Source: Eimeria necatrix
Taxonomy: Eukaryota > Apicomplexa > Conoidasida > Eucoccidiorida > Eimeriidae
Direction: 5' to 3'
Assembly: GCF_000499385.1 (NCBI RefSeq)
Contig: NW_013651790.1
Coordinates: 90,604-154,603 of the forward strand
Length of the DNA stretch: 64,000 nt
Shown: piece by piece, positions 49,625 through 64,000 of the stretch
Layout: every line of letters starts with the position of its first letter
How positions within the stretch are numbered: the stretch's first letter is position 1
The notes under the pieces: generated by a model
Database searches by the model: none
The model's input: the letters and a program-made list of their open reading frames with translations, nothing else
What the model was told of the DNA's origin: nothing
Position numbers and translations under genes: made by a program

Positions 49625-52541
49625 TCAAAAAGCCAAGTTTTTGAACTTCTTGTTTCGCTTTGTCTTGGCAGCCGAACTGCCTTCACCTGAGGCTGCCGCA
49701 TCCCCTGGAGCCTTCGTCTTTTTCCTAATGGAAATGGAGCCTGAAGTCAACGAGAGAGAGACACAAACAAGAATTTAAAAAGCAAAAGAATGTCAGCAAC
49801 AGCAACAGTTACAGAAACAGAAACGGGAGCAACCACAGACGAGAACGAAAAGCACACATCAAGGTAGGGGGGAAGATAAGAACAAAAAGAGGAACTGGAG
49901 AGAATATAAACGGGAACTAAAGAGAGAATAAGAGAAGATAAAACGCAGAAATTGCGTCAGGTGGCACAGTTAGTGAATTCCATCTTTCTTACCCGACACC
50001 TCTCTTCCCTTTGCGGCGTCCTCAATGTCCTCTGGTGTAATGTGACTGACACCGTATTTCTGCAGCACCCCAACAGGTCTTTGCGCCTTTCCCAGTGTTT
50101 AATTTGCCGTTTTCTTGGGTGTTCTATTGGGTGCAATTTGCCGTTTCCTTTTGCAACATTGCCTATTGCATCTGCCTCTTTTTCAATATATCATTACTCC
50201 TGCTGCTCCTTGACAATTATATGACTGCAGCCAGTGCAGCCTGTCGCTGTCCTGCCCCCGCGTCATCAGCCTTAGCTTTATAGTACTCTTATTTTTGTGT
50301 CTTCTCTATTCTTGCTGCACTGCTCATCTGCCTCCTGTCTGTCTCGTTCCTTGCTTCTGCCTATCTGCCTCATCTGTCGCTATCAGTCTCATGTTAACTT
50401 CCTTCTGTCTACCCTTTTCCGCAAGTTTCACATTTCCGTGCTTACCTCGAGCGCATCTGGACCCAGCGCCTCTTTGATTTGCTGCAGCTGGATACTTTGC
50501 TGCTCCAGCACTTTTGCTGCATCTTTCTGCTGCTCCTCCGCCAGGGGGCCCTGGGGTTCAGCCCCCCCCACTAACTCCCCTTGCTTGATGGCCACTCTCC
50601 GGGCGGCGAAGGCCGAGGCCTCTTCGGCCTCCAAAAGATTCTAAACAAACACAATGCACGCACAGGTGGCCCATCCTTGCATGCAGACTCTGCGGGGCTT
50701 CTACCTAGCTCTGCAGCCTCCTGGCCAGGGGCAGAAGCAGGCAGCTCAGCAGGCAAAAAGGACAGAGAAGAGAAATAAATGAATATAGAAAGAGCAACAG
50801 CTCAAGAAAATTGAGTGTTGGGGACTCCCCAGAGAAAGCAGACTGAAATCGGCTGCGTGCGAGGCAGAAAGCAAGAAAAGGTAAGACGGAAGAAGTGGAC
50901 AAAAAGAAACAAGGAAATGGTGTAACAGAGAAAACGAATACACAGCCAAATAAGGCAATGACAGAGGCAGACAAACACCAGCACAGACATGGCAAGAGGC
51001 TATTGCAGAAAAAGACATAAAGGGAAGAAAATAATGAAGAAGACACAGAAGCAGCAGAATCCCTCAAAAACTTGAAAGCAGCCCAAGAAGCTGCACAAAC
51101 GCACATGCAGGTGCTGGTGGATCTTCACTATTGCCTTGTTAAAAAGCGCCAAAATCTGATGGACAGGAACTTTGAATTCCTCAGCCAATGTGTCAGCTGC
51201 AGCACCACACCAACCACCTCAACTCCTTAGCTCTAAATCAAAGTCCCCAAGCTGCTGCTGCGGCTCAGTGCATGCATGCGCAGCACGCAGTCTTGGGAGT
51301 CTACTATTCACAAGAGGCTGAGCCTTCCGCTTCCACCCCCCCCGGCGCCTCCGTTTGCCGCCACTGTTGCATGTATGCACGCATGCATGCATGCATGCAT
51401 GCATGCATGCACCGTGAGGTGTCTAGGGAGACAGCAGGCGGCAGGGGCCTAGGCTGTGCACGTACGCTGTCTCCTCTGGCCGCCCATGCCCAGCAGCGCA
51501 GCTTCTTGCAAAAAGGAAAGCTGCAGGGGCCTCAGCCTTTGGCCGAAGTACAAAGTGCAGAGCAAAGGCACCAAGTCCGTTATTAAGGCCAAGTCCGCGA
51601 GCTGCTGCGCGTACTTGTGCAGACGACTCAAGTCGTGGCGAGTTAAGAACTGGAACATCTGAGAAAAACGAAATGAAAACAGAAGTATAAACAACAAGGT
51701 GAAACGCAGCGGCGCCCCCAGTAGACAGAAGCAAAGAAACGCCCTGCAGCGCACGAGCCTCTGTATACTCCTCTAGACACTTTGTCTCTTCCACTGCTTT
51801 TTTTCTTTTCCACTCTATCTCTTTGTCTCTAAATCCCCGTGCTAAACAGCCAAGTCGGCTATTTGTCAGGATTCGTTTTTTGTTCTTCACTCTTTGCTGC
51901 GCCGCGGCCCGTGGCCCGTGGCCCGCGCAGTGTACGTACACCGCAGAGGCTCACCGTCTCCGCGTTCAACGCAGGCAAATAACCCTCTGCTTCCTGTCCC
52001 CTCGAGCCCGCAAGTGTGGCGAGGGCCAAGGAGACAGACATGTCTCTGAAGGGCCCCCCTGTGAGTTCCACAAACCGCCTCCGGAAGTCTGCAGCGAAGA
52101 GCTGCACCCAATGGCCGTCTGCTGCTTTGCTGCGCTGCAGCAGCAGAAACAGCCACAGCCCGTCTCGCCTTTTGTGCAATTCTAGTTCTTTTTTGCTGCC
52201 TCTTTCGCCCTATCCTGCACTGGCTGTTGTCTTCTTATCAAGATCCACTCTAGTTGCCCTGTCCCTGTCCCCTCTTGCTTTCATTTTCTGTTTCTTCTGT
52301 CTCTTTTTATCTTGCGGCGCCTTGTCATTTTCTGTTTCTCGTCTACTTCCTAGCTACTTCGCGCGTCTATCTGCGCTGCACGGAGTGAAGCTGTTCTGTG
52401 GACTCGACTTTGCATCATCAGGGTTTAGGGTTTAGGGTTTAGAGTTCTCTACACTTGGTGTCTTACCGCCTCCGCCTCGTCAATGCCGTCATAGAGCCCC
52501 CGTTTGTTCATTTCCCCCTGCTGGGCGTCCGAACTCGCTGC

Positions 52542-52579
<38 letters not shown>

Positions 52580-53788
52580 GGGCGGGCGCAGCTGGCCGCA
52601 GCATGATGCAGCTGTGTTCGCCCGTGACGTCGTTGGGCTGCTGCCTCAAGTAGACAGGCACGAAGCCCCTGCGGGCCCAAAAACGCAGCAGCTGGTCCGT
52701 AAGGCCAAAGGCAGTGCCCAAGTAGTCCACGGCGAAGGGGGGGCAGCTGCGGGCGCAGGGGCAGAGCAGCGGGGGCGTGGTCTGTGGCCGCAGCTGTTCG
52801 GGGGTGACGGTAAGTATGGAAAGCGAGTCGGCGGCTTTGCCCTTGTCTTTTTTCCCGTTTTTGGGCTTTTTCGCTGTCTCCTTTGTCCCCTTTGACCCCT
52901 TCTCTTCTTCTTTTGCTGCTGCTTCCTCGGGCTCCTCAGGCTCTGTCTCCTCGTCACTTGTCCCTGCTTCCAAGTCCAAGTCTTCGATGTCTGCGTCCAT
53001 TTTGGACACTTTCTCCTTCCTTTTGGACCCCTGCTGCTGCTGCTGCTGCTGCGCGGCCTTGCGCTGCGCAAAGGCAGCAAACTCCGGGGGCTCCTGCAGA
53101 GACAGGCCCTTGCCCTCGAAAAAGTCTATCAGCTGCTGCAGCGCAGCAGACCCAAAGCCCATTCGCTGCAGACTCGGGTGCACAGCAATTCGCACAATGC
53201 GCGCCTGAGACAAGAAACACACAACAATGTGCTCGAGCAGTCCAGCCACTGCCTGTGGCAGCAGCAGCTGCAACCGCTGCAGCATTAGAGCTGCAGCGGC
53301 AGCAAAGCTGCAGCAGCAGCTGCAACCGCTGCAACATTAGAGCTGCAGCGGCAGCAAAGCTGCAGCAGCAGCTGCAACCGCTGCAGCATTAGAGCTGCAG
53401 CGGCAGCAAAGCTGCAACAGCAGCTGCAACCACTGCAGCATTAGAGCTGCAGCGGCAGCAAAGCTGCAACAGCAGGAACGCCGCTGCTGCAATATTCTCC
53501 TAGCTGCAAGAGTCTCCGGAAATATGCCTCTTCGCCGCTTTTATGCGAACTGACAAATGTAGCTGAGGGCCTAGATTTCCGGGTTTATTTCTAGTAATTA
53601 GGGTTTGAAAAGAAGAGAATAGGAATATAAAATTGACAACTCACCCCGGTGAGAAGCCCCACGTCTTCGTCTCCAAAGGCTTGCGCCAAAGTCCAAGGAA
53701 GCAAATCCCCTGCAGGACGGAGGCCTCTCCCGAGGGCCTCTCGAATGGCTCCGCGGGTGAGCGAGCCCTCAATCGCAACCTGCAGCAG

Positions 53789-53829
<41 letters not shown>

Positions 53830-55531
53830 GTGGTAATGAGGCCTCTGGGGCCGCTGTTTTTGGCTGGCAGGCCGCGGAGAGGCCGGGGGAGGGCCCACCT
53901 GTATGGCGCAGTAAATGTCGGGAAGTGTGTCTTGTTGGTCTTCGACAGTTTTGAGAAAAACAAAAAGAAGGTGGGCCGGGGCGTCGGCCATCAGCTGCAG
54001 GTCGTTGGGGCTGTTCTTGTAGTGCGAAGAAACAAAAAGGCCCTGCAGCCGCTGCAAGAAGGCCTCGCTCGCCGGGTGGTAAGAAAACAAAGCGTCCCTG
54101 TTCACCAAGTACAACGCGCAGCTGCTCGCCGCGGGCAGCCCCTTCTGCACACAAACGGCCCCACACACTCGCCTGCAGCTTTGGGGCCCCAGCGGGCCCC
54201 ACAAGGGCCCACATGGGGTGTGGTGGGGTGGGGCCCCCTCCCCAAACCTCACCTGGGGGCCCCCATGTCCTCTGGGGGGCCCCCAGGTGAGTGTAGCAGA
54301 CCCCGCCCAGGGTGGCAGTTGGGGACGGGGGCCCCTCCAGGCCCTCTGGGGGGCCCCTAAGTGAGTGTAGCACACCCCACCCAGAGTGGGATTTGGGGAG
54401 GGGGCCCCTTCAAAGCCCTCCGGGGGGCCCCTAAGTGAGTGCATATGTGAAAGCATGCATGCGCAGAATGCATTTGCTGCTGAAGAGCCATGGGCAGGCT
54501 TGAGAAACGCCCGAGAGAAACACACGCAGAGACTGGGACAAGGGAGCACACAAGCCCTAAACCCTAAACCCTAAACCCTAACCCTACACTCTGGGAAGCA
54601 AGGCACTTGGGAACATGCAGCGAAAACGACAGACGAGCAAAGAGACAAGTGAGAAAGGGAAAAGAGCAGAAGTTCAAGACAAAGAAAGACTGCCTCCCGC
54701 AGCCCCAGCAGCAGAACTTTTCTGAGAAAGAATGAGCAAAAAAGACAGCTTTCTCACTGCAGGGTCCAGAGCTGGAGCCGTTGTGGAGTCCAAACAAAGC
54801 AAAGAATGCAGCCACTGTTCAATTGCGTCTCCTGCTGCGTAGCGAATGGGGACTTCGAGAGAAAGTTCCTTCAGCTGCCGCTGGGGTGTACGTACACCGT
54901 GGCTGCCAGGGGGGCCCCTCAACCCCCGCCGCAAATCCGCCAACAACTTCAGAGAAAGAGATCTCCCCGTGCCTTCATATCCATTTACTGTTGAGGACAG
55001 CAATACAATGTAAGGGCCTGCGTGCAGACAGAAGAACCCCAAACCCTAAACCCTAAACCCTAAACCCTAGCTGTAGGCGGGAAGCGAAGCTGCTCAGCAG
55101 CTCGGGGGCCCCAAGCCCTTTCGTTTCTGCAGCCGCGAGCGCTCTGGGCGCAGACCCAAACCCTACTCTCCAAGCCCCAAACCCTAGACTCGAGCCCATC
55201 CCCAAACCCTAAACCCTAAACCCTAAACCCTGCAACTCGCCGAGAAGCTTTTTAATGACTGGCAGCGGTATGGAGGCCGCCTCATCCACCACGAGAAGGT
55301 CCGCGTTGATGAGGCTTTGCTGCTCGTGGGGAAAAATGAACTGTACGCGCTGTCTGTGGTGTCTGTACACCTCAATTCGAGTCACCGCCTTCACAGACTG
55401 CTGCTGATATAAACCCGAAGCTGCTGCTCCAGACAAGTCCGCGCCTTTGGGGCCCCGGCCCCCAGTCCCCACAGTCTCCAGGGTCACTTGGAAGTCCCCT
55501 TGCTCCCGCAGGCCCATGGCCTTCAGGCCCT

Positions 55532-55567
<36 letters not shown>

Positions 55568-56804
55568 GTGAGACGGGAGGCGCAGCAGCTGCGGCCAGGG
55601 CCCACCGGCGCACGCGCGTCCCACACGCGGCGCCTTGTCGCGCAGCTGGCCTCAAACCCTAAACCCTAAACCCTAAACCCTAAACCCTAGAAGGCGCAGT
55701 GGAGCTCTCTGCTGCAGCGCTAACCTTTTGGACGAATTCGAAAAGGGTTTGGACATTTTCTGCCTGTGGGGCGCAGATGAAAATGCTGCTGACTCCCAGG
55801 GAGACAGCAGCAGCAACAGCGAGCCCGAGAGCAGCAGACTTGCCCCTGCCTCTGCCTGCAGTGAGGGCCACGGTCTGGTAGCCTTCGCCCCCCTGGGGCC
55901 CCCCCTGGGGGCCCCCCTGGGGGCCCTCCTGGGGGCCCCCCTGGGGGCCCTCCTGGGGGCCCCCCGAGGAGTGGCTGCTGCCGCGGAAGCTCTTGCAGCT
56001 GCAGAGGCAGTCGAGGAAGGCGAGGACTGCGTTGGCTTGGTCTTTGGTTGCGCAGAGTTTGACGAGGGCGTCGAGAGGAGGGGCGTGTTGGACTTTGTCT
56101 TTGATGAGCTGGAGCTGCTGCTGCTGCTGCTGCTGCTGCTGCAGCAGCAGCGGGTCGGGGGCCCCCACGCCGGGGGCCCCGTTGATGGGCAGCACGTTGA
56201 GCTCGTCGTCGAGAATGAGACAGCGCCGGCAGTCCACGAGAGACAAGAGGAAGCGCTGAGAGAACCTGGGGCTGAGTTGGGCGGAGTCGCGGGCCTTGAA
56301 CCTGGCCTGGAAGTCGAAGGCGAGGCGGTGGAGCTGCTGCAGCTGCTGCTGCTGCTGCAGCAGCAGCAGCACGAGGCCCCCCCCCGCCACCGTCTCCACC
56401 GCGCGACACAACACGTTCGCAGACAAACCCCCCAAGTCCTGCAACACGCACAGCCCGAACGTGCAGCCCAGCACTTGCTGCGAGTCCGCGTAGTGCACGT
56501 AGCGAATTTGCGCAGAAGACACGAAGAGCTCGAAGGGGTCTTCGACGTTGGGGTCGTAGAGCCCGCGGCTGATCTTCTTGCGCAGCAGCCGCTGCCGCTT
56601 GCGGCGGTGCGAGCTGAAGCCCAGTTCCTTTTTGTAGCACCAGAGCACAGCGGGCTTCTGGGGCCCCACACTGCTCAGCAAGTAGTACAAGTTCACCACT
56701 TGTTCTCTGCCGCGGTCCCCCACGATTACGAACAGGCCCCGCTCGCCGCTCGCCACGCAGCTCTCCACCAGCCCCCGCACCACGCGGTCCACCTTCTTCC
56801 GCAT
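49625..56804 (-). CDS. NAT10: NAT10/Kre33/TmcA-type RNA cytidine acetyltransferase, 12 exons
   Basis: A nucleolar enzyme that makes N4-acetylcytidine in 18S rRNA and tRNA with ATP and acetyl-CoA. Exons (minus): 55725-56804, 55241-55529, 54758-55017, 53899-54144, 53645-53779, 52467-53204, 51955-52134, 51466-51658, 51105-51196, 50446-50640, 49993-50059, 49625-49740; total 1,196 residues, all in phase (human 1,025). Start is ATG at 56,804, MRKKVDRVVRGLVES. Blocks in order: VLWCYKKELGFSSHRRKR, DPFELFVSSAQIRY, Walker A ALTAGRGRGKSAALGLA, VVDEAASIPLP, STVNGYEGTGRSLSLKL, SSHYKNSPNDLQLMADAPAH, the GNAT fold RIVRIAVHPSLQRMGFG and GFVPVYLRQQPNDVTGEHSCIML, then the tRNA-binding C-terminus and a lysine-rich tail. 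Repeats have lengthened it: poly-Gln, a GGPQEG-type insert before Walker A, an acidic/lysine insert in the GNAT domain and an alanine run. The exon 2 donor appears to be GC (CTCG/GCGAGT). Confidence 0.95.
51379..51411. repeat. GCAT tetranucleotide microsatellite
   Basis: About eight uninterrupted GCAT units within an intron of NAT10. Each unit junction makes TGCATGC, the core recognised by some apicomplexan AP2 factors; here it may be only simple sequence. Confidence 0.9.
52421..52442. repeat. Telomere-like array, TTTAGGG on the plus strand
   Basis: Three units in the NAT10 intron after exon 6, starting 24 bases beyond the splice donor. It is in the opposite orientation to most other arrays in the window. 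Confidence 0.9.
53255..53482. repeat. Minisatellite, 52-bp unit, about four copies
   Basis: The landmark ATTAGAGCTGCAGCGGCAGC recurs at 53,284, 53,336, 53,388 and 53,440, a constant 52-base period, with only a few substitutions. It lies wholly in the NAT10 intron between exons 5 and 6, and is itself made of GCTGCAG words. Confidence 0.93.
53781..53831. repeat. CAG microsatellite forming the NAT10 exon 5 acceptor tract
   Basis: On the sense (minus) strand this is a (CTG)n tract that ends in CTGCAG exactly at the start of exon 5 (53,779). Confidence 0.9.
54176..54440. repeat. GGGGCCCC-rich block in a NAT10 intron
   Basis: GGGGCCCC and GGGGGGCCCC words recur, with two longer near-copies (about 54,290-54,365 and 54,360-54,440) sharing CCCCTAAGTGAGTG. 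Non-coding. Confidence 0.8.
54554..54587. repeat. Telomere-like array (CCCTAAA)
   Basis: About four and a half units, in the NAT10 intron between exons 3 and 4, about 170 bases from the donor. Confidence 0.9.
55035..55069. repeat. Telomere-like array next to the NAT10 exon 3 acceptor
   Basis: About four and a half units, lying 18 bases before exon 3 on the sense strand. Confidence 0.9.
55201..55231. repeat. Telomere-like array next to the NAT10 exon 2 donor
   Basis: Four units, starting 9 bases into the intron. With the array at 55,035 it brackets both ends of one 223-base intron. Confidence 0.9.
55531..55566. repeat. CAG microsatellite forming the NAT10 exon 2 acceptor tract
   Basis: An uninterrupted run of about 12 triplets; on the sense strand (CTG)n runs into CTGCAG at the first base of exon 2 (55,529). 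Confidence 0.92.
55653..55690. repeat. Telomere-like array in NAT10 intron 1
   Basis: Five units, starting 34 bases beyond the exon 1 donor. Confidence 0.9.
55888..55972 (-). repeat. GGGGCCCC-type tandem repeat inside NAT10 exon 1
   Basis: Units of about 15 bases (CCCCCCTGGGGGCCCT) encode tandem GGPQEG/GGPQGG on the minus strand, just before the Walker A motif. The same sequence family is non-coding elsewhere in the window. Confidence 0.85.
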
Positions 56805-56813
56805 CGCCACCCC

Positions 56814-56848
56814 CAAACCCTAAACCCTAAACCCTAAACCCTAACCCT
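56814..56848. repeat. Telomere-like array immediately upstream of the NAT10 start codon
   Basis: About four and a half units, ending 9 bases before the initiation codon on the sense strand, so it is probably in the 5' untranslated region, at a 5' intron end, or in the promoter. Confidence 0.9.
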
Positions 56849-56977
56849 GAGGCCTGGCCCCGCAACGCCGAGCACGCCCAGGCCCGCGCGGACAGCGCGC
56901 CGATTCAGCCAGAGCAGCGGAGCGGAAACGCTAGCCAGCAACAGCTCAGGCGCGGGCTCACGGATTCCAACGAGGGT

Positions 56978-57173
56978 CTAGGGTTTAGGGTTTAGGGTTT
57001 GCGGCTCCAGACTGCATGCCTTCGGGGCTAAAGCTGGCCCTTGAACTTTGTTAATTTCGCTTTTTCTTCCGGCGGGTGCCCGCTGAATGCTGAAGAAAAC
57101 AGATCGCCGCCAGCGAGGCCCCAGGCCTTCTAGCCACAAACCCTAAACCCTAAACGCTAAACCCTAAACCCTA
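56978..57173. repeat. Two telomere-like arrays of opposite orientation
   Basis: TTTAGGG units at 56,978-57,000 and AAACCCT units (one changed to AAACGCT) at 57,138-57,173, upstream of NAT10. Confidence 0.85.
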
Positions 57174-58570
57174 GCCTTCTTATCCCAACCAGAGGGCATG
57201 CACGGATCAAATGTTCACAAAAATTAAAAATTGATCCGCTAAAACTATGAAATATGCAGAAGACCCACACGGCCACTGCTGTGGGGCAGGGGCCCCCACG
57301 CCAACTGGGGGGCCCCTACGTACCAGGGGCCCCTGTGGGGCCCCAAGGGTACACCTTTATCCTTCATATTCTGTCTCTGGGATTAAAAAGGAAAATAAAA
57401 TGCTCTGAGCCCACAAATCAGCTTTCGTAGCGCATGCGCTTCAAGTGGATACACTTTCGCCCTTTTCTCCAGAAACCCTCGGGACCCTGAGAACCCACAG
57501 GGGGCCCCTTGGGGGGCCCTCAGGGGGCCCCCGGGGGCCCCTCAGGGGGCCCCCGGGGTTCCCTGTGAGACGAGAGCACTTCAAGTTCCTTCTGTGCAGA
57601 GGCTGCTTGCTGCAGCAAGCTATATGTTGCTGCTGCCCGCCGTGGCTAGCTGCAGCTAGCTAGGGGTCGCTGAAAAGAGCACGCCACAGCTAGCCACAGC
57701 TAATCACAGCTTGCTAAGGACAGTGCTGCACGTAGCAGCTCATCTTTGTATGCGCAGAAGGACTGGCAGATGTCACAGTTAGCTACAGCAAGCCCTAGCT
57801 AGCTACAGCTAGCTCGAGCTCCCGCTGCAGCTAGCACCCTACAGATACAGCTGCACACAGGCACCTAGCCATTTCTGTCTTGTCCTGTGGGGCCCAAGAG
57901 GCCAACGGCTTGCTGCTAGCAGCCCCTCTGTGCATTCCTTACTGGCTGCTTGCTGCCCTTTGGCTGCAAAGAGTTCGGGTTGGCTAGCTACATAGGCAGC
58001 TAGCTGGCTAGCTAAGTAGCTAGCTGCAAGGCAAGTATCCTATGAAGGCGCTGCAGTTTCCCTCTGAGCCATTCAGCCCCTTCTTTGTAGCCAGCTAGCC
58101 AGCCTGCTCCTCAGCCAGCCAGCCTCGTCCCCAGCCACTGGGCTGGCTAGCTGGCTAGCTAGTCAGCCCGTCCAGCCGGATAGCTAGCTCACAGCCACAA
58201 GGCTGCGAGCTAGCTGTGAGCTAGCTGCGAGCTAGCTGTGAGCTAGCTGTGAGCTAGCTGTGAGCTCGCTGCGAGCTCGCTGTGAACTAGCTGTGAACTA
58301 GCTGTGAGCTAGCTGCCAGCTAGCTGCCAGCTAGCCGCCAGCTAGCTGTGAGCTCAAGGATCTACACTTGTAAAGCGGAAAACGTAAGGAGATAAAAATC
58401 GGGGGGCCCCAGAGGGGGCCCCCCGAAGGCTCCCCTGGGGCCCCTGGCCCTAGTTTGGGTGTCTCCCTGTGGGGCCCCGCGGCCTCTTGGGGCCCCTGCA
58501 GCCCCTGCTCTTTGCTGCTGTTTTCATTAAGACTATAAAGATTAAAACTGCATTGCTGCTGCTGCTCCTG
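57174..58570. repeat. Repeat-dense intergenic block: GGGGCCCC then AGCTAGCT arrays
   Basis: 57,276-57,570 is GGGGGCCCC-rich. From about 57,600 to 58,360 the sequence is dominated by self-complementary AGCT/CTAG/GCTAGC words. At 58,200-58,350 these resolve into an 11-bp tandem repeat (TGTGAGCTAGC and variants, about 13 units). 58,400-58,515 is again GGGGCCCC-rich. No gene is seen; this is the region between the PCMT 3' end and the NAT10 5' end. Confidence 0.85.
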
Positions 58571-58687
58571 CTGCAGTGTACAGACAGCTGAAACGCCGGC
58601 TTGAGGTGTCACTGCAGCTACGCAAAGCCCCATCAATTAAGAACAAGATGAGCCCCTGCATGCGCCGTCAGTGTACAGACACTGTCT

Positions 58688-58925
58688 CCAAGCTATTACT
58701 GCTGCTGCTGCTGCTGCTGTCGCTTTCGCTGCTGCTCCTCCTGCTACTGCTGCTACTGCTGGTACTGCTGCTGCTGTTGCCGCTGCTGCTGCCCCTGCTG
58801 CTTCTGTTGTCGCTGCTTGTGCTGCTGCCGCTGCTGCTGCCGCTTCTGCTGCCGCCTCTTCTGCTGCCGCTGCTGCTGCTTCTGCTGCTGCTGCTGCTGC
58901 AGCTGCTGCTGCTGCTGCGGCTGGC
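58688..58925. repeat. Long imperfect CTG microsatellite
   Basis: About 80 CTG-type triplets with CCG, TTG and CTT interruptions, ending just past the PCMT stop codon region. Open frames across it (poly-Leu, poly-Ala, poly-Gln) are a by-product of the repeat. Confidence 0.9.
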
Positions 58926-58930
58926 GGCAG

Positions 58931-60839
58931 CTAGTGGGAGGTGGTGCGGACGAGGGGCACGTAGATAACGCTGGTGATGTAATTAACAGAAATTTCTCCT
59001 TCAGAGTTTTTGGAAATAACAACAAGAGCCTGGCCTCCTCCTAAATCGGAATTAATTCCCAAGTCCCTTTCGCCCAAACCCTCGAGGGTTATGCGGCCCC
59101 TGCTGCACTGCACGGGGATCACCATTTTGCCCCCAGCAGCAAGCTGCTGCAGCAGCGCAGCAGGAACTGCAGCAGCAGCAGCACCCACGTGGATTGCGTG
59201 GTAGGGGGCCCCCCAAGAGGGGCCCCCCGCCCAGCCGTCTCCTTTGATTAGCTCAAAGTTGGGGCTCGACAGCAGCGACGGGAAGGCAGCAGCCACGTTC
59301 CTGCAACACCCAAACCCTAAACCCTAGGCCGCAAACCCTAAACCCTAAACCCTAAACCCCGGAGCCAGCAGCTCTACACAGAGGGCCCCGACTGCGCGCT
59401 AATGTTAAAACCGTTTAACAAGAGCGCTTAGTCCCCAAACCCTCGGCCAGTGCGTCTGCACCCATTATTTACCCTCAACCCTAAACCCTAAACCCTAAAC
59501 CCTAAACCCTTTTGCTAATTCCTCAGCAACTAAACCCTAGCACCTTAACCCCAACTAAGCACCCTCGACAACAGGATCGGAGACGGAAACCCTAAACAAC
59601 AGTCCCAGGCTTCGACCACGGATCTGGGGGCCGCCGAGCCCCAAACCCTAAACCCTAAACCCTAAACCCTAAACCCTAAACCCTAAACCCTAAACCCTAA
59701 TCCCAAACCCTCGCGACTTGCTTGCGCGACAAGTCCACCAAACCCTGCACGTAGTCAATCCCCACGGCCACGCCCCCGCCCTCTTGCCCAGCGCCCACCA
59801 TCAAGGCCATGCAAACTGTCAAATAGCCTGTCCCCGATCCTGCAGCAAACCAGCAAACCCTCGATTGCTTTCTTTTCCAAATTACAATTCCAAAAGCTCC
59901 TAAATGCAAAAACTGGCGCCCCCCAAGTCCTGCACTGGGGCCCCGGGGCCCCCACAACCCGCGCAGCACCCGGGGGCCCCTTCGGGGGCCCCCGGGGGCC
60001 CCCGGGGGCCCTCAAACTGCCCTCGGGGGGCCCCTTTGAGGCCGTTGGAGGGCCACTTCGGGGGCACAAGGACCCTTCGGAGTCCCTAGGGCCCCCCTAG
60101 GGGGCCCGCAGGGGGCCCCTTCGGGCGCCCTAGAGGGACCCTAGGGGGCCCTCCGGGGGCCCTCCGGGGGCCCTCCGGGGGCCCTAGGGGGCCCCTTGGG
60201 GCCCTTGGGTGGGCCCTCGGGGGCCCTCGGGGCCCCTTGGGGCGGAAGCGCCTGAGCAGCGGCTGCAGTGCGGGGCTGCTGCGGTGTACGTACACCTGGG
60301 GCACGCACCGACGTCGAGGGCCCTGTGGCCCCACACCAGTTCTTCTTTAAGTTGTTCAAGAGCAATTGCATGCATGTGGGGTGCAGAAATGGTGGCCCCG
60401 AAGCCGATGGACTGGGGCATGTCCAGGTAAGGGTCTTGGCTCACGAAGTGGCCCCGGTCCACCTGCCGAAACACCCACACCCAAACCCTAAACCCTAAAC
60501 CCTAAACCCTAAACCCTAAGCCCTAGAGCCCACGCACTGCTGGTGGGGAATACGCGGAAAGGGCTCCGCTGGGGCCATCTGCATGCAGCTGCTGCGTCTT
60601 CTGGCTGGCTCTCTCTGCTGCAAGTCCCTTTCCCTGTGTGTGCCCCCGCCTCGCTGCACTAAACCCTAAACCCTAAACCCTAAACCCTAAACCCTTGGCC
60701 CGCGCCGCGGCCTAGGGCCGAAGGCGAAGGGCCGCACCTGCAGCATGACGTCGAAAACCCTTTGGTCCTTGAAGACGCCTGAGCGCCTCAAATTCTCCAC
60801 AAGCTCTTTGTTGCTGCTCCCGTGGCTGCGCCACGCCAT
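58931..60839 (-). CDS. PCMT1: Protein-L-isoaspartate O-methyltransferase (PIMT/PCMT), 4 exons
   Basis: Repairs isoaspartyl residues in aged proteins using S-adenosylmethionine; cytosolic in most eukaryotes. Exons on the minus strand: 60738-60839, 60309-60462, 59709-59839 and 58931-59300, about 250 residues (human 227). Start [17 protein letters not shown] matches the family start almost exactly. Then [18 protein letters not shown] (substrate-binding SAPHMHA), the SAM-binding motif [31 protein letters not shown], and [17 protein letters not shown] with GGKMVIPV. The first two junctions are in phase. At the third, the natural protein join (VAR-NVAAAF) needs the donor one base earlier than the GT: exon 3 runs straight into a telomere-like array (GTTTGGGATTAGGG), so either an assembly indel or an unusual junction is present. 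An upstream in-frame extension with poly-Ala (to 61,241) is more likely 5' untranslated or intronic. Confidence 0.92.
59311..59709. repeat. Three telomere-like arrays filling PCMT intron 3
   Basis: Arrays at 59,311-59,359, 59,476-59,510 and 59,642-59,709. The first lies about 10 bases before the exon 4 acceptor and the last abuts the exon 3 donor. Degenerate units (CCCTAGCAC, CCCTCGGCC) lie between them. Confidence 0.9.
59930..60250. repeat. GGGGGCCC-rich block in PCMT intron 2
   Basis: Dense GGGGGCCCC/GGGGGCCCT words of extreme GC content, ending shortly before a GTGTACGTACACC element at 60,284. Frames across it are Pro/Gly/Arg-rich by-products. Confidence 0.85.
60481..60519. repeat. Telomere-like array next to the PCMT exon 2 acceptor
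   Basis: Five units, 18 bases before exon 2 on the sense strand. Confidence 0.9.
60660..60695. repeat. Telomere-like array near the PCMT exon 1 donor
   Basis: Five units, starting about 42 bases into intron 1. Together with the array at 60,481 it brackets the intron. Confidence 0.9.
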
Positions 60840-63000
60840 GGCTGCAGAAGGGGGCTCGGGAGGGTCTTCTGCTGCTGCTGCTGCAGCTGCTGCTGCTGCT
60901 GCTGCTGCTGCCGGGGGGCCCCGCGGCGCACTTGAAGGGCTGGAGGAAAAGGGCTGGGGGGCCCCTGGGGCTTCAGCGGCGCCCGTAGGTGACCCTATGG
61001 AGGAAGAAAGCGGGGGAGAGGCCTGGATGAAGCTCGGGGGCCGCTGGCCAGCCAGAAAGCGAAAATGGTGAGTTGGTTTTCGGAAAATTGAGTGAAAATG
61101 AGTCAAAAAAGAAGCAGAAGGATCAGAAGTGACAGCAAAGAAGGACACACTGTTTAGAGTCGCCGCCGTCGCCGCCGCCACAGCTGTAAGTACACCCCAG
61201 ATCTTCGCGCGCGAGGCCCGGCGGCCGCAACCCCACAGCATTTCGAGGCAAATGGCACACCACTTTAATTAATTCTTTATTTTTTCTACTATTATTCAAC
61301 TAATAAAACAAAACTGCAACTTAATGCCCCCGAGACAGCCACCAGAGCACTCCCGGCTGCGCAGCCGCGCCCGGGGCTGACTGACACTTCACTTGGATCT
61401 GGAACAGCGGGGCGGAAAATATTTATTGCAATAAAAATAAAATGCATTTTTGTGAAATAAAAAAAAAAATAACTGCGCGTACACCCCAAGACCAGACACC
61501 CCGGCCCACTACTGTGCACAGAGCTCTATACTGGCTGTACTCAAAGCCTACAGGACTAGAGAAGTATCTGCTTCTGCATTTCAAATGAGCAGCAGCAAAA
61601 CAGTCATCAGCAGCAGCAGCAACAGCAGCAGCAACAGCAGCAACCGCGGAGCCTCGAGGCCAATCTTAACAGCAAGTTGGTTTGAGTGTTCTGTGGGTCT
61701 TTGCCCAATGCACTCCCCGCACAAAAGACAAGAAAGGGGCCAACAGTTGTCTCAGTGAGTTTCTCGGCATGCGTACATTGCAAAATGTACTTCTGCGCCC
61801 GTCTATGCATAAATCTGAACACATTTACCTTCACTGATGTCTATATAAATGCATATCAATATATACACATTTGCAGCGCCGCAACTTCTGTACTTGGAGG
61901 CACAGCTGCAAGTGCAGACACTGTACATACACCTGAACTGCCGCACTCGTGCATGCACGCAACACACAGAGGCGTACATACACCTGCCGCAGGCCACGCC
62001 TCGGAGGGAACTTTGCGGGCCACTCAGTTGTCCAAATAATATATTTATACATTTGTACATATATGAAATGACTTATTCTGCATGCCTCAAATGCTCAACA
62101 ACATCTTTGCATATCTTATTGCACCAGCAGCGTAGCCGCCAGGCCCAAAGGCGCATGTGCAGCCACCTGTACACTGCACTTCCATGCTTGAAGACACAAA
62201 TGCAAAAAAGTACAAATACAAATGCAAATAAATACATATGTATACAAATATATACAAATATAAATGTATAATACACATATTTACTGCATGCAAACGGGCG
62301 CATTTGCGCGGGGGGGCTCTGCGCAGACAGCTGGATGGGGTGTATGTACAGACACCCGAACGGCGCCGCTCGCGCATAGAAAACCCACAAACGCGAAAAG
62401 GCAGCAAATAAGAAATGCAAGTGCACTATACTACACAAGCACTGGGGACTTGTTCATGAAATGCAAAGAGACACAAAAGGATGTGCTCGAGCGCATGCAA
62501 AGCCCCAAAAAGACCAGCAAACGCCCCCTAGCACCCAAGCCAGCAAACAGCTGGAGACAGCCGCAGGGCAGTCTCGGCAAAGGGCCCTTGAGCTACAATT
62601 CTCATTCATCCCAGACAAATAAAACGCCAAGGCGCAGCAACCAACGCTGGCTAGCTAGCTAGCGCCCGCGCCCCCGCCACCCCGCTAGCTGGCTAGCTAT
62701 CTAGCTAGCTAGCCAGCTAGCTAGCTGCCTCTTCACCTCTGCCGGCCGCCCGCCTTGGGCCATATGAACCCCAGGCACGCCCAGCTAGCCAGATAGCCAG
62801 CCATATAGCTAGCTAGCCAGATAGCTTGCTAGCCAGATAGCTAGCCAGATAGCTAGCTAGCCAGCTAGCTAGCTGGCCTGATCAAAACAAGTCGCGAAGG
62901 ACAACTATTAGCGGAAGTCTCAACAAGGACGTTGCGCTAAGGGTTGCCTCATTCGGGGTGTCTTTACATCTGCAGCACACAAAAAGCAAACCAAAAACAC
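60840..63000. other. Intergenic region with AT-rich and AGCT-rich parts
   Basis: It holds the PCMT promoter side (right of 60,839) and, further right, non-coding sequence. 61,260-61,460 and 62,030-62,290 are unusually AT-rich (ATATATT, AAATAAATACAT) for this half. 62,645-62,880 is an AGCTAGCT array like that at 57.6-58.4 kb. GTACATACACC-type elements occur at 61,922, 61,976 and 62,339. No gene is recognised. Confidence 0.5.
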
Positions 63001-63332
63001 CAAACCCTAAACCCTCGCCAAAACCCTAACTGGCTGCACGGGCCTAGCCCAAGCGCAGACGCCCAAACCCTCAAGGCAGTAACTCGCTAAACCCTAAACC
63101 CCAAACCCTAAACCCTAGTCCTAAGCCCAAGCGCTAAACCCTAGCGCTACCCTAACCCTGAACCCTAGCGTTAAACCCTAGCACTGAAAACCCTATAGCA
63201 CTAAACCCTAGCGTTAAGCCCTAGCAATAAACCCTAGCGCTATACCCTCGCACTAAACCCTCGCGCCAAACCCTCGCGCTAAACCCTCGCGCTAAACCCT
63301 CGGTCTAAACCCTAAGTAAACCCTCGTTTACT
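63001..63332. repeat. Degenerate telomere-like array with GCGCT spacers
   Basis: AAACCCT units are mixed with a longer unit of about 13-14 bases (AAACCCTAGCGCT, AAACCCTCGCGCT), giving a higher-order repeat over 63,120-63,310. It overlaps the stop codon of the unrecognised minus-strand gene at its right edge. Confidence 0.9.
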
Positions 63333-63775
63333 CGCGCTCAAACTCGTCAAAAGTGAGGGTGAGGCCGGCATGCCGAGAGAGAGTTTTCCAGGGTTCTTCA
63401 GTAGGGTCAACATAGAGCTGCTTGCGAGCGCACTCTGTTGCTGCTGCTGCTGCCTGTGTTGCTGCTGCTGACGCTGCAGCTGGCGCTGCTGCTGCTGCTT
63501 CTGCTGCAGCTCGACCCTGCAGGCCGCAGCAGCCCTCAAGGGCCATTGTCACAAACGGGTACTTGTCTTTAAATAATTCTACAGCACTCGCCAGCGCCAA
63601 ATCATCTACCTGAAAAAAAACAAAAAAAAAGAAAATAAATTTGTGACAAGAAATGCAAATGCAGACACTCTGCGCGCGCCGCTCAGCTGTACGTACACCT
63701 CAACCCACTTACACTTTTAAACGACACGCGAGCCCGCCGGAGCTTGTCCACGATAGAGGGCGTAAGCAGCACTGC
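63328..63775 (-). CDS. Unrecognised gene, two 3'-terminal exons
   Basis: I do not recognise the family. Exon 63,713 to about 63,773 encodes LLTPSIVDKLRRARVSFKS and splices (GTAAGT) in phase to exon 63,328-63,609, which starts after an excellent acceptor (TTTTTTTTCAG). The second exon encodes VDDLALASAVELFKDKYPFVTMALEGC, then an alanine/glutamine-type run from CTG repeats (63,434-63,515), then LYVDPTEEPWKTL and LTFDEFERE before the stop. The acceptor before the first exon (TTGTGCAG) implies at least one more exon to the right. The ordinary-looking sequence on both sides of the repeat, the clean splice signals and the stop argue that it is real; an alternative is that the frame extends by another 3' exon. 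Confidence 0.6.
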
Positions 63776-63783
63776 ACAACTCA

Positions 63784-63819
63784 AAACCCTAAACCCTAAA
63801 CCCTAAACCCTAAACCCTT
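63784..63819. repeat. Telomere-like array near an acceptor of the terminal gene
   Basis: Five units, about 10 bases before the left-hand exon of the unrecognised gene on the sense strand. Confidence 0.88.
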
Positions 63820-63934
63820 GATCTAAGCCCTACTTTACGCTGAGACAAGCTGTCAAGTGAGCCGCTTCACAACGGGGCCCTTGCTGGTGTTTTCTTCTAC
63901 AAAGTACCCATGGCTCAAGTGCTGGACTCAGTCC

Positions 63935-63982
63935 TTAGGGTTTAGGGTTTAGGGTTTAGGGTTTAGGGTTTAGGGTTTAGGG
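63935..63982. repeat. Telomere-like array, TTTAGGG on the plus strand
   Basis: Nearly seven perfect units, the longest run in this orientation. Unique sequence follows to the window end, so this is not a chromosome end. Confidence 0.92.
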
Positions 63983-64000
63983 TCTGAGGACGCACTGCGG

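Follow-up and report, generated by a model that had tools for sequence, protein, structure and literature searches.

The window analysed here is a stretch of 64,000 nucleotides (nt) of the Eimeria necatrix genome (bases 90604-154603 of contig NW_013651790.1, C271 in our numbering), and our subject is the telomere-like heptamer TTTAGGG, which forms short tandem arrays in and around the genes encoding NAT10 and PCMT. Arrays in the window were defined as exact runs of TTTAGGG/CCCTAAA of at least 14 nt. Twenty such arrays were found, every one within positions 52420-63983, and positions 1-52419 contain none. Occurrence is also band-like elsewhere, as the density ranges from 0 to 20 arrays per 10 kb across the first 20 loci that were fetched, and three-unit matches to the heptamer number 17829 + 17599 in the 44.0 Mb (1148 contigs) of the genome that was searched. 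Exon edges throughout this work have a protein homology basis. The exons of NAT10 were fixed by alignment to a Protein Data Bank entry (9j3c, E = 1e-211), with exon 7 positioned by visual inspection of the translation, and those of PCMT by alignment to a second entry (1i1n, E = 1e-58). On these edges, 9 of the 11 arrays in the homology-checked introns of the two genes have an exon edge no more than 42 nt away.

Both genes are on the minus strand, as are the arrays unless stated otherwise. In NAT10, intron 6 (52135..52466, 332 nt, donor GTAAGA, with exon 6 from the alignment and exon 7 by eye) contains an antisense array on the plus strand (52420..52442) that is 24 nt from the donor. Intron 3 (54145..54757, 613 nt), whose join falls where the alignment is poorly conserved, contains a sense array (54555..54581) that is 176 nt from the donor and not near an edge. 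Two sense arrays are present in intron 2 (55018..55240, 223 nt, GC-AG, donor GCGAGT), one 23 nt from the acceptor (55041..55069) and one 9 nt from the donor (55204..55231), and they are separated by 162 nt centre to centre. Intron 1 (55530..55724, 195 nt, donor GTTAGC) has a sense array 35 nt from the donor (55654..55689). Upstream of the gene, a sense array (56815..56844) ends 10 nt before the ATG and is followed by an array on the plus strand (56979..57000) and another on the minus strand (57138..57173), each one step of the spacing described below from the previous array (160 and 166 nt, respectively).

In PCMT, intron 3 (59301..59721, 421 nt, GC-AG, donor GCAAGT) contains three sense arrays: an interrupted one 11 nt from the acceptor (59312..59359), one in the middle of the intron (59477..59510) that is 158 and 178 nt from its neighbours and 176 nt from the nearest edge, and one 21 nt from the donor (59643..59700). 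Intron 1 (60463..60737, 275 nt) has a sense array 20 nt from the acceptor (60483..60519) and another, 176 nt away, that is 42 nt from the donor (60659..60695). The two GC-AG introns, with donors at 55240 and 59721, are two of the nine introns in NAT10 and PCMT, and both contain arrays. Further along, short arrays with degenerate sequence between them occupy 63002..63117 in the context of a putative gene, and the exact-match search placed an array at 63784..63818 in the region of the putative last gene of the window. An array on the plus strand (63935..63983) is one step (158 nt) from the latter in the opposite orientation.

A preliminary description of this DNA had claimed that nearly every array lies inside an intron or next to a start codon and that most are within about 0-42 nt of an exon edge. 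This core observation was borne out, and most of the distances given were correct within 5 nt when re-measured on the homology-fixed edges. The distances to the donors of NAT10 introns 6 and 2 (24 and 9 nt) and PCMT intron 1 (42 nt) were unchanged, and those to the NAT10 intron 1 donor (34 nt), the PCMT exon 4 acceptor (10 nt), the NAT10 ATG (9 nt) and the PCMT intron 1 acceptor (18 nt) became 35, 11, 10 and 20 nt, respectively. An array is indeed near the acceptor of NAT10 intron 2, at 23 nt rather than 18 nt. The distance of 0-1 nt given for the donor of PCMT exon 3 was wrong, since the reading frame and a gapless alignment point to the GC donor GCAAGT at 59721, which is 21 nt from the array. 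Closeness to an edge holds for 9 of the 11 intronic arrays; those at 54555-54581 and 59477-59510 had been passed over.

Array position relative to the 5' splice site

Within the window, 9 arrays within 42 nt of an edge compare with 3.6 of 11 expected from random placement in the same introns (p = 0.0001), a test for which the 42-nt threshold was chosen post hoc and in which arrays within one intron are non-independent. Threshold-free versions gave p = 0.026 for the mean distance and p = 0.005 for the median. As this initial nearest-edge test overstated significance through the non-independence of the arrays, it was corrected with a rigid-block null in which all arrays of one intron are shifted together and the spacing between them is kept. 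Under this null, an array is within 42 nt of the donor in 5 of 6 introns compared with 3.2 expected (p = 0.04), within 20 nt of the donor in 1 compared with 1.8 expected (p = 0.93), and within 42 nt of the acceptor in 3 compared with 3.2 expected. The window alone is therefore borderline and could not settle the edge effect.

Genes elsewhere in the genome were examined by aligning E. tenella and Cyclospora proteins, with introns, to fetched loci. The DNA fetched beyond the window amounts to 268,422 letters, of which the parts used hold 215,013 non-N letters; one locus consisting entirely of N (L024) was excluded. The donor statistic outside the window rests on three genes, namely a gene encoding an RRM protein, DBR1 and KRI1. 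DBR1 and KRI1 are both on contig C1, which was taken as the first contig, and the RRM locus (L030) was picked from a list of GTAAGT-array pairs that includes RRM intron 1 itself; loci L029, L033, L034 and L035 were picked from the same list. Three of the ten DBR1 introns were dropped before counting: two array-free introns with low-complexity joins and a third, following a 6-nt first exon, whose array is at distances of 37 nt (donor) and 247 nt (acceptor). This left 26 of 29 introns, 16 of them array-bearing. Arrays shorter than 20 nt after merging were excluded from these counts and from the pair-spacing sample discussed below.

In 15 of the 16 array-bearing introns the first array starts 1-18 nt past the donor, the individual distances being 1, 1, 1, 1, 3, 3, 5, 5, 5, 5, 7, 10, 12, 18, 18 and 129 nt. 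Random placement expects 3.3 of 16 donors to have an array within 20 nt (p <= 0.00005), and the rigid-block null expects 8.7 (p = 0.00002; by gene, p = 0.06 for the RRM gene, 0.20 for DBR1 and 0.00006 for KRI1). When the preselected RRM intron 1 is left out the count is 14 of 15 donors, and it is 9 of 10 for the two genes of contig C1 alone. Acceptors have an array within 20 nt in 9 of the 16 introns, more than simple random placement gives (p = 0.0017) but in line with the rigid-block null (p = 0.59); their nearness to arrays results from the array spacing of ~155 nt together with intron length. Since the acceptor effect is lost under the rigid-block null and the donor effect is kept, the true anchor is the 5' splice site. 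The arrays are thus in registration with the 5' splice site, and the registration with splice sites in general that had been noted before holds mainly there. The comparison with random placement that had been proposed, made on homology-defined edges, supports it for donors outside the window, where closeness to exon edges is stronger than inside.

The junctions on which these counts depend are supported by proteins of other species, aligned likewise. For the four counted array introns of DBR1 the donor is the same in 4 of 4 other proteins, and the acceptors are the same in 4, 4, 4 and 2 of 4. For the six array introns of KRI1 the donor and acceptor are the same in both other proteins, with one intron at 1 of 2. 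In the RRM gene each of three other proteins supports five donors, five acceptors and four whole introns, in each case out of six. Identity to the E. tenella protein is 94.5% for KRI1 and 83.7% for DBR1, as would suit an Eimeria close to E. tenella. Other routes to exon edges were given up. A self-trained gene finder was too weak, as it recovered 6-7 of 9 known donors and 3-5 of 9 known acceptors and may be pulled towards arrays; its results were supportive under four settings (in one, 19 of 34 arrays within 42 nt vs 12 expected) and are not used as evidence. The word GTAAGT failed as a genome-wide donor marker because it is rare, with counts of 23 + 30 at 0-30 nt from arrays vs 18 + 18 at 100-130 nt. 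Six-frame scans with Pfam gave few gene anchors, and none for the plus strand of L030 or the minus strands of L035 and L010.

Array bases enter the donor itself in the genes outside the window, where four donors read G/TAAACCC and two read GTGAGGG or GTCAGGG. Genome-wide, the base before arrays that start with TAAACCC is G in 1191 cases, A in 242 and T in 277; a preceding C belongs to the array and is not comparable. The share of donors reading GTNAG is no lower in introns with arrays (8 of 22) than in array-free introns (4 of 13). Strong donor words are scarce, as AGGTRAGT occurs 5 times in the first sample and about 800 times genome-wide by extrapolation, and donors in E. necatrix seem unusually degenerate. 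A palindrome, GTGTACGTACAC, is present 42 times in 279 kb where about 0.02 occurrences are expected, and its core, TGTACGTACA, 61 times. The core lies at 51931, 54887, 60285 and 63688 in the window and is also found in fetched loci. The palindrome makes some splice sites, including DBR1 donors (GTACGTACACC) and acceptors ending in GTGTATGTACAG or GTGTACGTACAG.

The arrays next to donors are 8 sense and 8 antisense. A bias towards the sense strand had been reported, and it is present in the window (9 of 10) but is not a general rule, with 25 of 40 outside. Additionally, in two of five genes an array precedes the ATG by 2 and 10 nt (135, 1739 and 2162 nt in the other three), and in two of four an array follows the stop codon by 5 and 6 nt (about 2400 and 1757 nt in the other two). 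As arrays abut ATGs and stops, the anchor looks like the edge of a coding segment and not splicing alone. No array of at least 14 nt touches any of the 42 homology-defined exons. KRI1, DBR1 and a COX17 exon follow one another on the minus strand of contig C1 at about 5.7-25.9 kb (L011-L013), and the KRI1-DBR1 order may be conserved with E. tenella.

Spacing of arrays at about 157 nt

The gaps between adjacent arrays in the first sample have a peak that places array centres about 155 nt apart. Genome-wide counts of same-orientation pairs are 10354 at ~157 nt, 3687 at ~236 nt, 5897 at ~314 nt and 3245 at ~393 nt, and convergent pairs number 2009 at ~157 nt vs 741 at ~236 nt. These counts cover start positions at the listed distances, and one pair of arrays may score several times, equally in every bin. 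Among 176 arrays from the window and the fetched DNA, 70 pairs are 135-180 nt apart compared with 28 under a jitter null (maximum of 500 nulls, 42). The best period in this sample is 157 nt, with a z of 5.9 (null 95%, 4.0; highest null, 6.5), and the first spacing peak recurs in loci that were fetched after the pattern had been noticed. A weaker spacing of roughly half a step (near 65-110 nt) is also seen in the pair histogram and within introns.

The same spacing is found when positions are measured from the donor. For 39 array centres within 560 nt of an array-adjacent donor, 16 lie at 14-44 nt, 9 at 164-186 nt and 3 at 310-323 nt. The 12 introns with arrays near both ends are 211, 214, 216, 222, 223, 275, 278, 348, 353, 421, 507 and 515 nt long. 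In a scan of 60-200 nt their best period is 73 nt (p = 0.006 vs uniform), and periods of 145-160 nt give p = 0.07, so that the clustering of intron lengths is only suggestive. Pairing of the two intron ends into a hairpin by opposite arrays was considered and dropped, as about half of the two-ended introns, judged by eye, have ends of opposite orientation.

The spacers between phased arrays are unrelated to each other, with 2 BLAST hits among 66 masked spacers, and tandem duplication and recent introner copies are therefore unlikely. Unmasked spacers gave 229 hits that came from degenerate telomere-like words, and masked control segments gave 2510, a control that is swamped by other repeats and carries no information. 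The ends of the arrays are polar on the G strand in loci L011-L035: GGGTTT forms the end of 108 of 172, most often with a G after it, and AGGG the start of 71 of 172. Many start in AGGG or CTAGGG, and degenerate units follow many of the ends. These polar registers could fit telomerase-type synthesis.

A proposed placement in nucleosome linkers and alternative explanations

Nucleosome linkers would be expected to produce a ~157-nt period of this kind, blind to orientation and anchored at the edges of coding sequence. We consider the chances to be about even that the arrays sit in the linkers of a ~155-bp nucleosome lattice that takes its phase from coding-segment edges, chiefly from the 5' splice site. 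Somewhat short of even are the chances of the fuller proposal of a sequence-encoded nucleosome ruler, in which arrays of either orientation, set one nucleosome apart, would fill the linkers and have their anchors at 5' splice sites and other coding edges, so that exons would be chromatin islands and the arrays would record where linkers lay when telomere-type DNA was added. The array spacing would then equal the nucleosome repeat length. The arrays may arrive when breaks in accessible linker DNA are filled by synthesis of the telomerase type or by copying; alternatively, they may persist in linkers because they would resist being wrapped around histones and would hold a nucleosome on every exon and intron segment. 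Their placement could be selected, with arrays acting as boundary elements, or merely targeted and tolerated. Such an arrangement would parallel that of Plasmodium falciparum, in which the nucleosome repeat length is 155 bp and AT-repeats in linkers do the nucleosome positioning (PMC5198986), and the clearest positioning is found around splice donors and acceptors, with the ATG and STOP also marked (PMC4797266).

Several observations weigh against the linker reading. Tested by gene, the rigid-block result is significant for KRI1 only, and this gene carries much of that test. Beyond 200 nt the periodicity of the sample alone is non-significant, with 109 nt as its best period and a value of 1.75 at 150-170 nt that falls below the null 95% of 1.81, although a second peak is visible in the genome-wide counts. 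Eleven of the 39 array centres measured from donors fall outside the clusters (86, 106, 112, 120, 144, 200, 247, 261, 394, 475 and 476 nt), and array spacing across exons in the RRM gene, taken from coordinates, is larger at about 178-210 nt. Acceptor-adjacent arrays lean towards the sense strand (10 sense vs 3 antisense). The non-array spacers average 111 nt, less than the 147-bp nucleosome core, so that array ends would need to be wrapped. Nucleosome positioning is usually looser than array starts at 1-5 nt past a donor would require. Finally, the P. falciparum study speaks of strong positioning "over splice sites", which leaves open the linker side at the donor (PMC4797266).

Each of the other explanations accounts for a part of these results. 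Arrays might arise anywhere in noncoding DNA by mutation and survive where they do the least harm, which would bring them close to edges without targeting. Arrays of at least 21 nt have stops in all frames, as follows from the unit, and no array touches the 42 exons. In E. falciformis, 93% of frame-incompatible repeats are reported to be noncoding (PMC4287421), and the heptamer has been described as uncommon within coding sequences (PMC7564333). The borderline edge effect in the window under fixed spacing is also in line with this explanation. We regard it as unlikely nevertheless, as random placement within introns gives 3.3 of 16 donors rather than 15 (rigid-block p = 0.00002) and no 157-nt period is predicted. 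The suggestion in the preliminary description that the arrays lie simply where selection allowed is thus supported as to their absence from exons and leaves the preference for intron starts unexplained. It is quite unlikely, in our estimate, that the introns were created by an introner-like element with telomere-like ends, in which case arrays would be next to splice sites by construction and long introns would consist of several units. The arrays lie 1-18 nt from donors regardless of exon length and give donor bases (GTAAAC, with the excess of preceding G noted above), five of the 12 two-ended introns are 211-223 nt long, the best period for the lengths of all 12 is 73 nt, and introners are known to insert in linkers (PMC9860276). 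However, the spacers are unrelated, arrays also adjoin ATG and stop codons, some array introns have an array at one end only, and intron length periods of 145-160 nt reach only p = 0.07. The idea of intron-birth scars is therefore weakened by the unrelated inter-array sequences but retains some plausibility.

An RNA-level role, in which G-runs or quadruplexes in the pre-mRNA would enforce splice sites, fits the donor anchoring, the sense bias in the window and the orientation of the acceptor-adjacent arrays. The even orientation at donors makes a purely RNA-level role unlikely as the main cause; convergent pairs share the ~157-nt peak, arrays occur at ATG and stop edges, and GTNAG donors are not scarcer with arrays than without. 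We consider this explanation very unlikely, and the RNA G-quadruplex splicing elements that had been listed as an option are disfavoured by the donor orientation and the arrays at ATGs and stops. Duplication of a single ~155-nt unit into tandem or dispersed copies, of which the arrays would be remnants, would produce the period of ~157 nt and its multiple. The sampled spacers are unrelated, though, and convergent pairs peak likewise, so that this explanation is largely refuted in the sample and is highly improbable. Placement in nucleosome linkers comes closest to another option listed earlier, insertions targeted to transcribed DNA, once linkers are added to it. The first interpretation of this DNA is, overall, partly supported; the genome-wide ~157-nt phasing was beyond its reach.

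Comparison with known systems

Simple repeats of Eimeria genomes have long been reported without an assigned function (PMC7564333). Donor anchoring and the ~157-nt period make it possible to test a connection between chromatin, splicing and the insertion of repeats, and if the linker reading is true, DNA sequence alone would record nucleosome positions in E. necatrix. The results bear on how simple repeats can spread among genes while leaving them intact and on the determinants of intron length, and Eimeria gene finders would gain a new splice-donor cue. In the excerpted literature on Eimeria telomere-like repeats, introns, splice sites and nucleosomes the arrangement was not found, no paper joining Eimeria telomere-like repeats with nucleosomes turned up, and an earlier mention in Reid 2014 or Ling 2007 is possible.

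Short interstitial telomeric sequences arise from telomerase-assisted break repair and consist of near-perfect arrays. The arrays described here resemble them in being near-perfect and telomere-type, may resemble them in their polar end registers, and differ in phasing and donor anchoring. G-triplet intronic splicing enhancers place G-runs near the borders of short introns; the arrays share such G-runs at intron borders, but half of those adjacent to donors are rich in C when read in the sense of the RNA. Introners share the position at intron borders and would share the preference for linkers (PMC9860276) but are families of similar copies, whereas the intron interiors here are unrelated. The interspersed heptamer of Eimeria (AAACCCT/AGGGTTT) is the same unit, occurs in bands with CAG repeats and lies outside coding sequence (PMC9131526, PMC4287421, PMC7564333); donor anchoring, phasing at ~157 nt and clustering of intron lengths are not described in the excerpts of these accounts. 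The AT-repeat linkers of P. falciparum are likewise tracts of repeats, tens of bp long, located where exons and introns meet, with a nucleosome repeat length of 155 bp compared with an array period of ~157 nt here (PMC5198986, PMC4797266). They differ from the E. necatrix arrays in that the latter are telomere-like in sequence, belong to another genus and are known from the DNA sequence.

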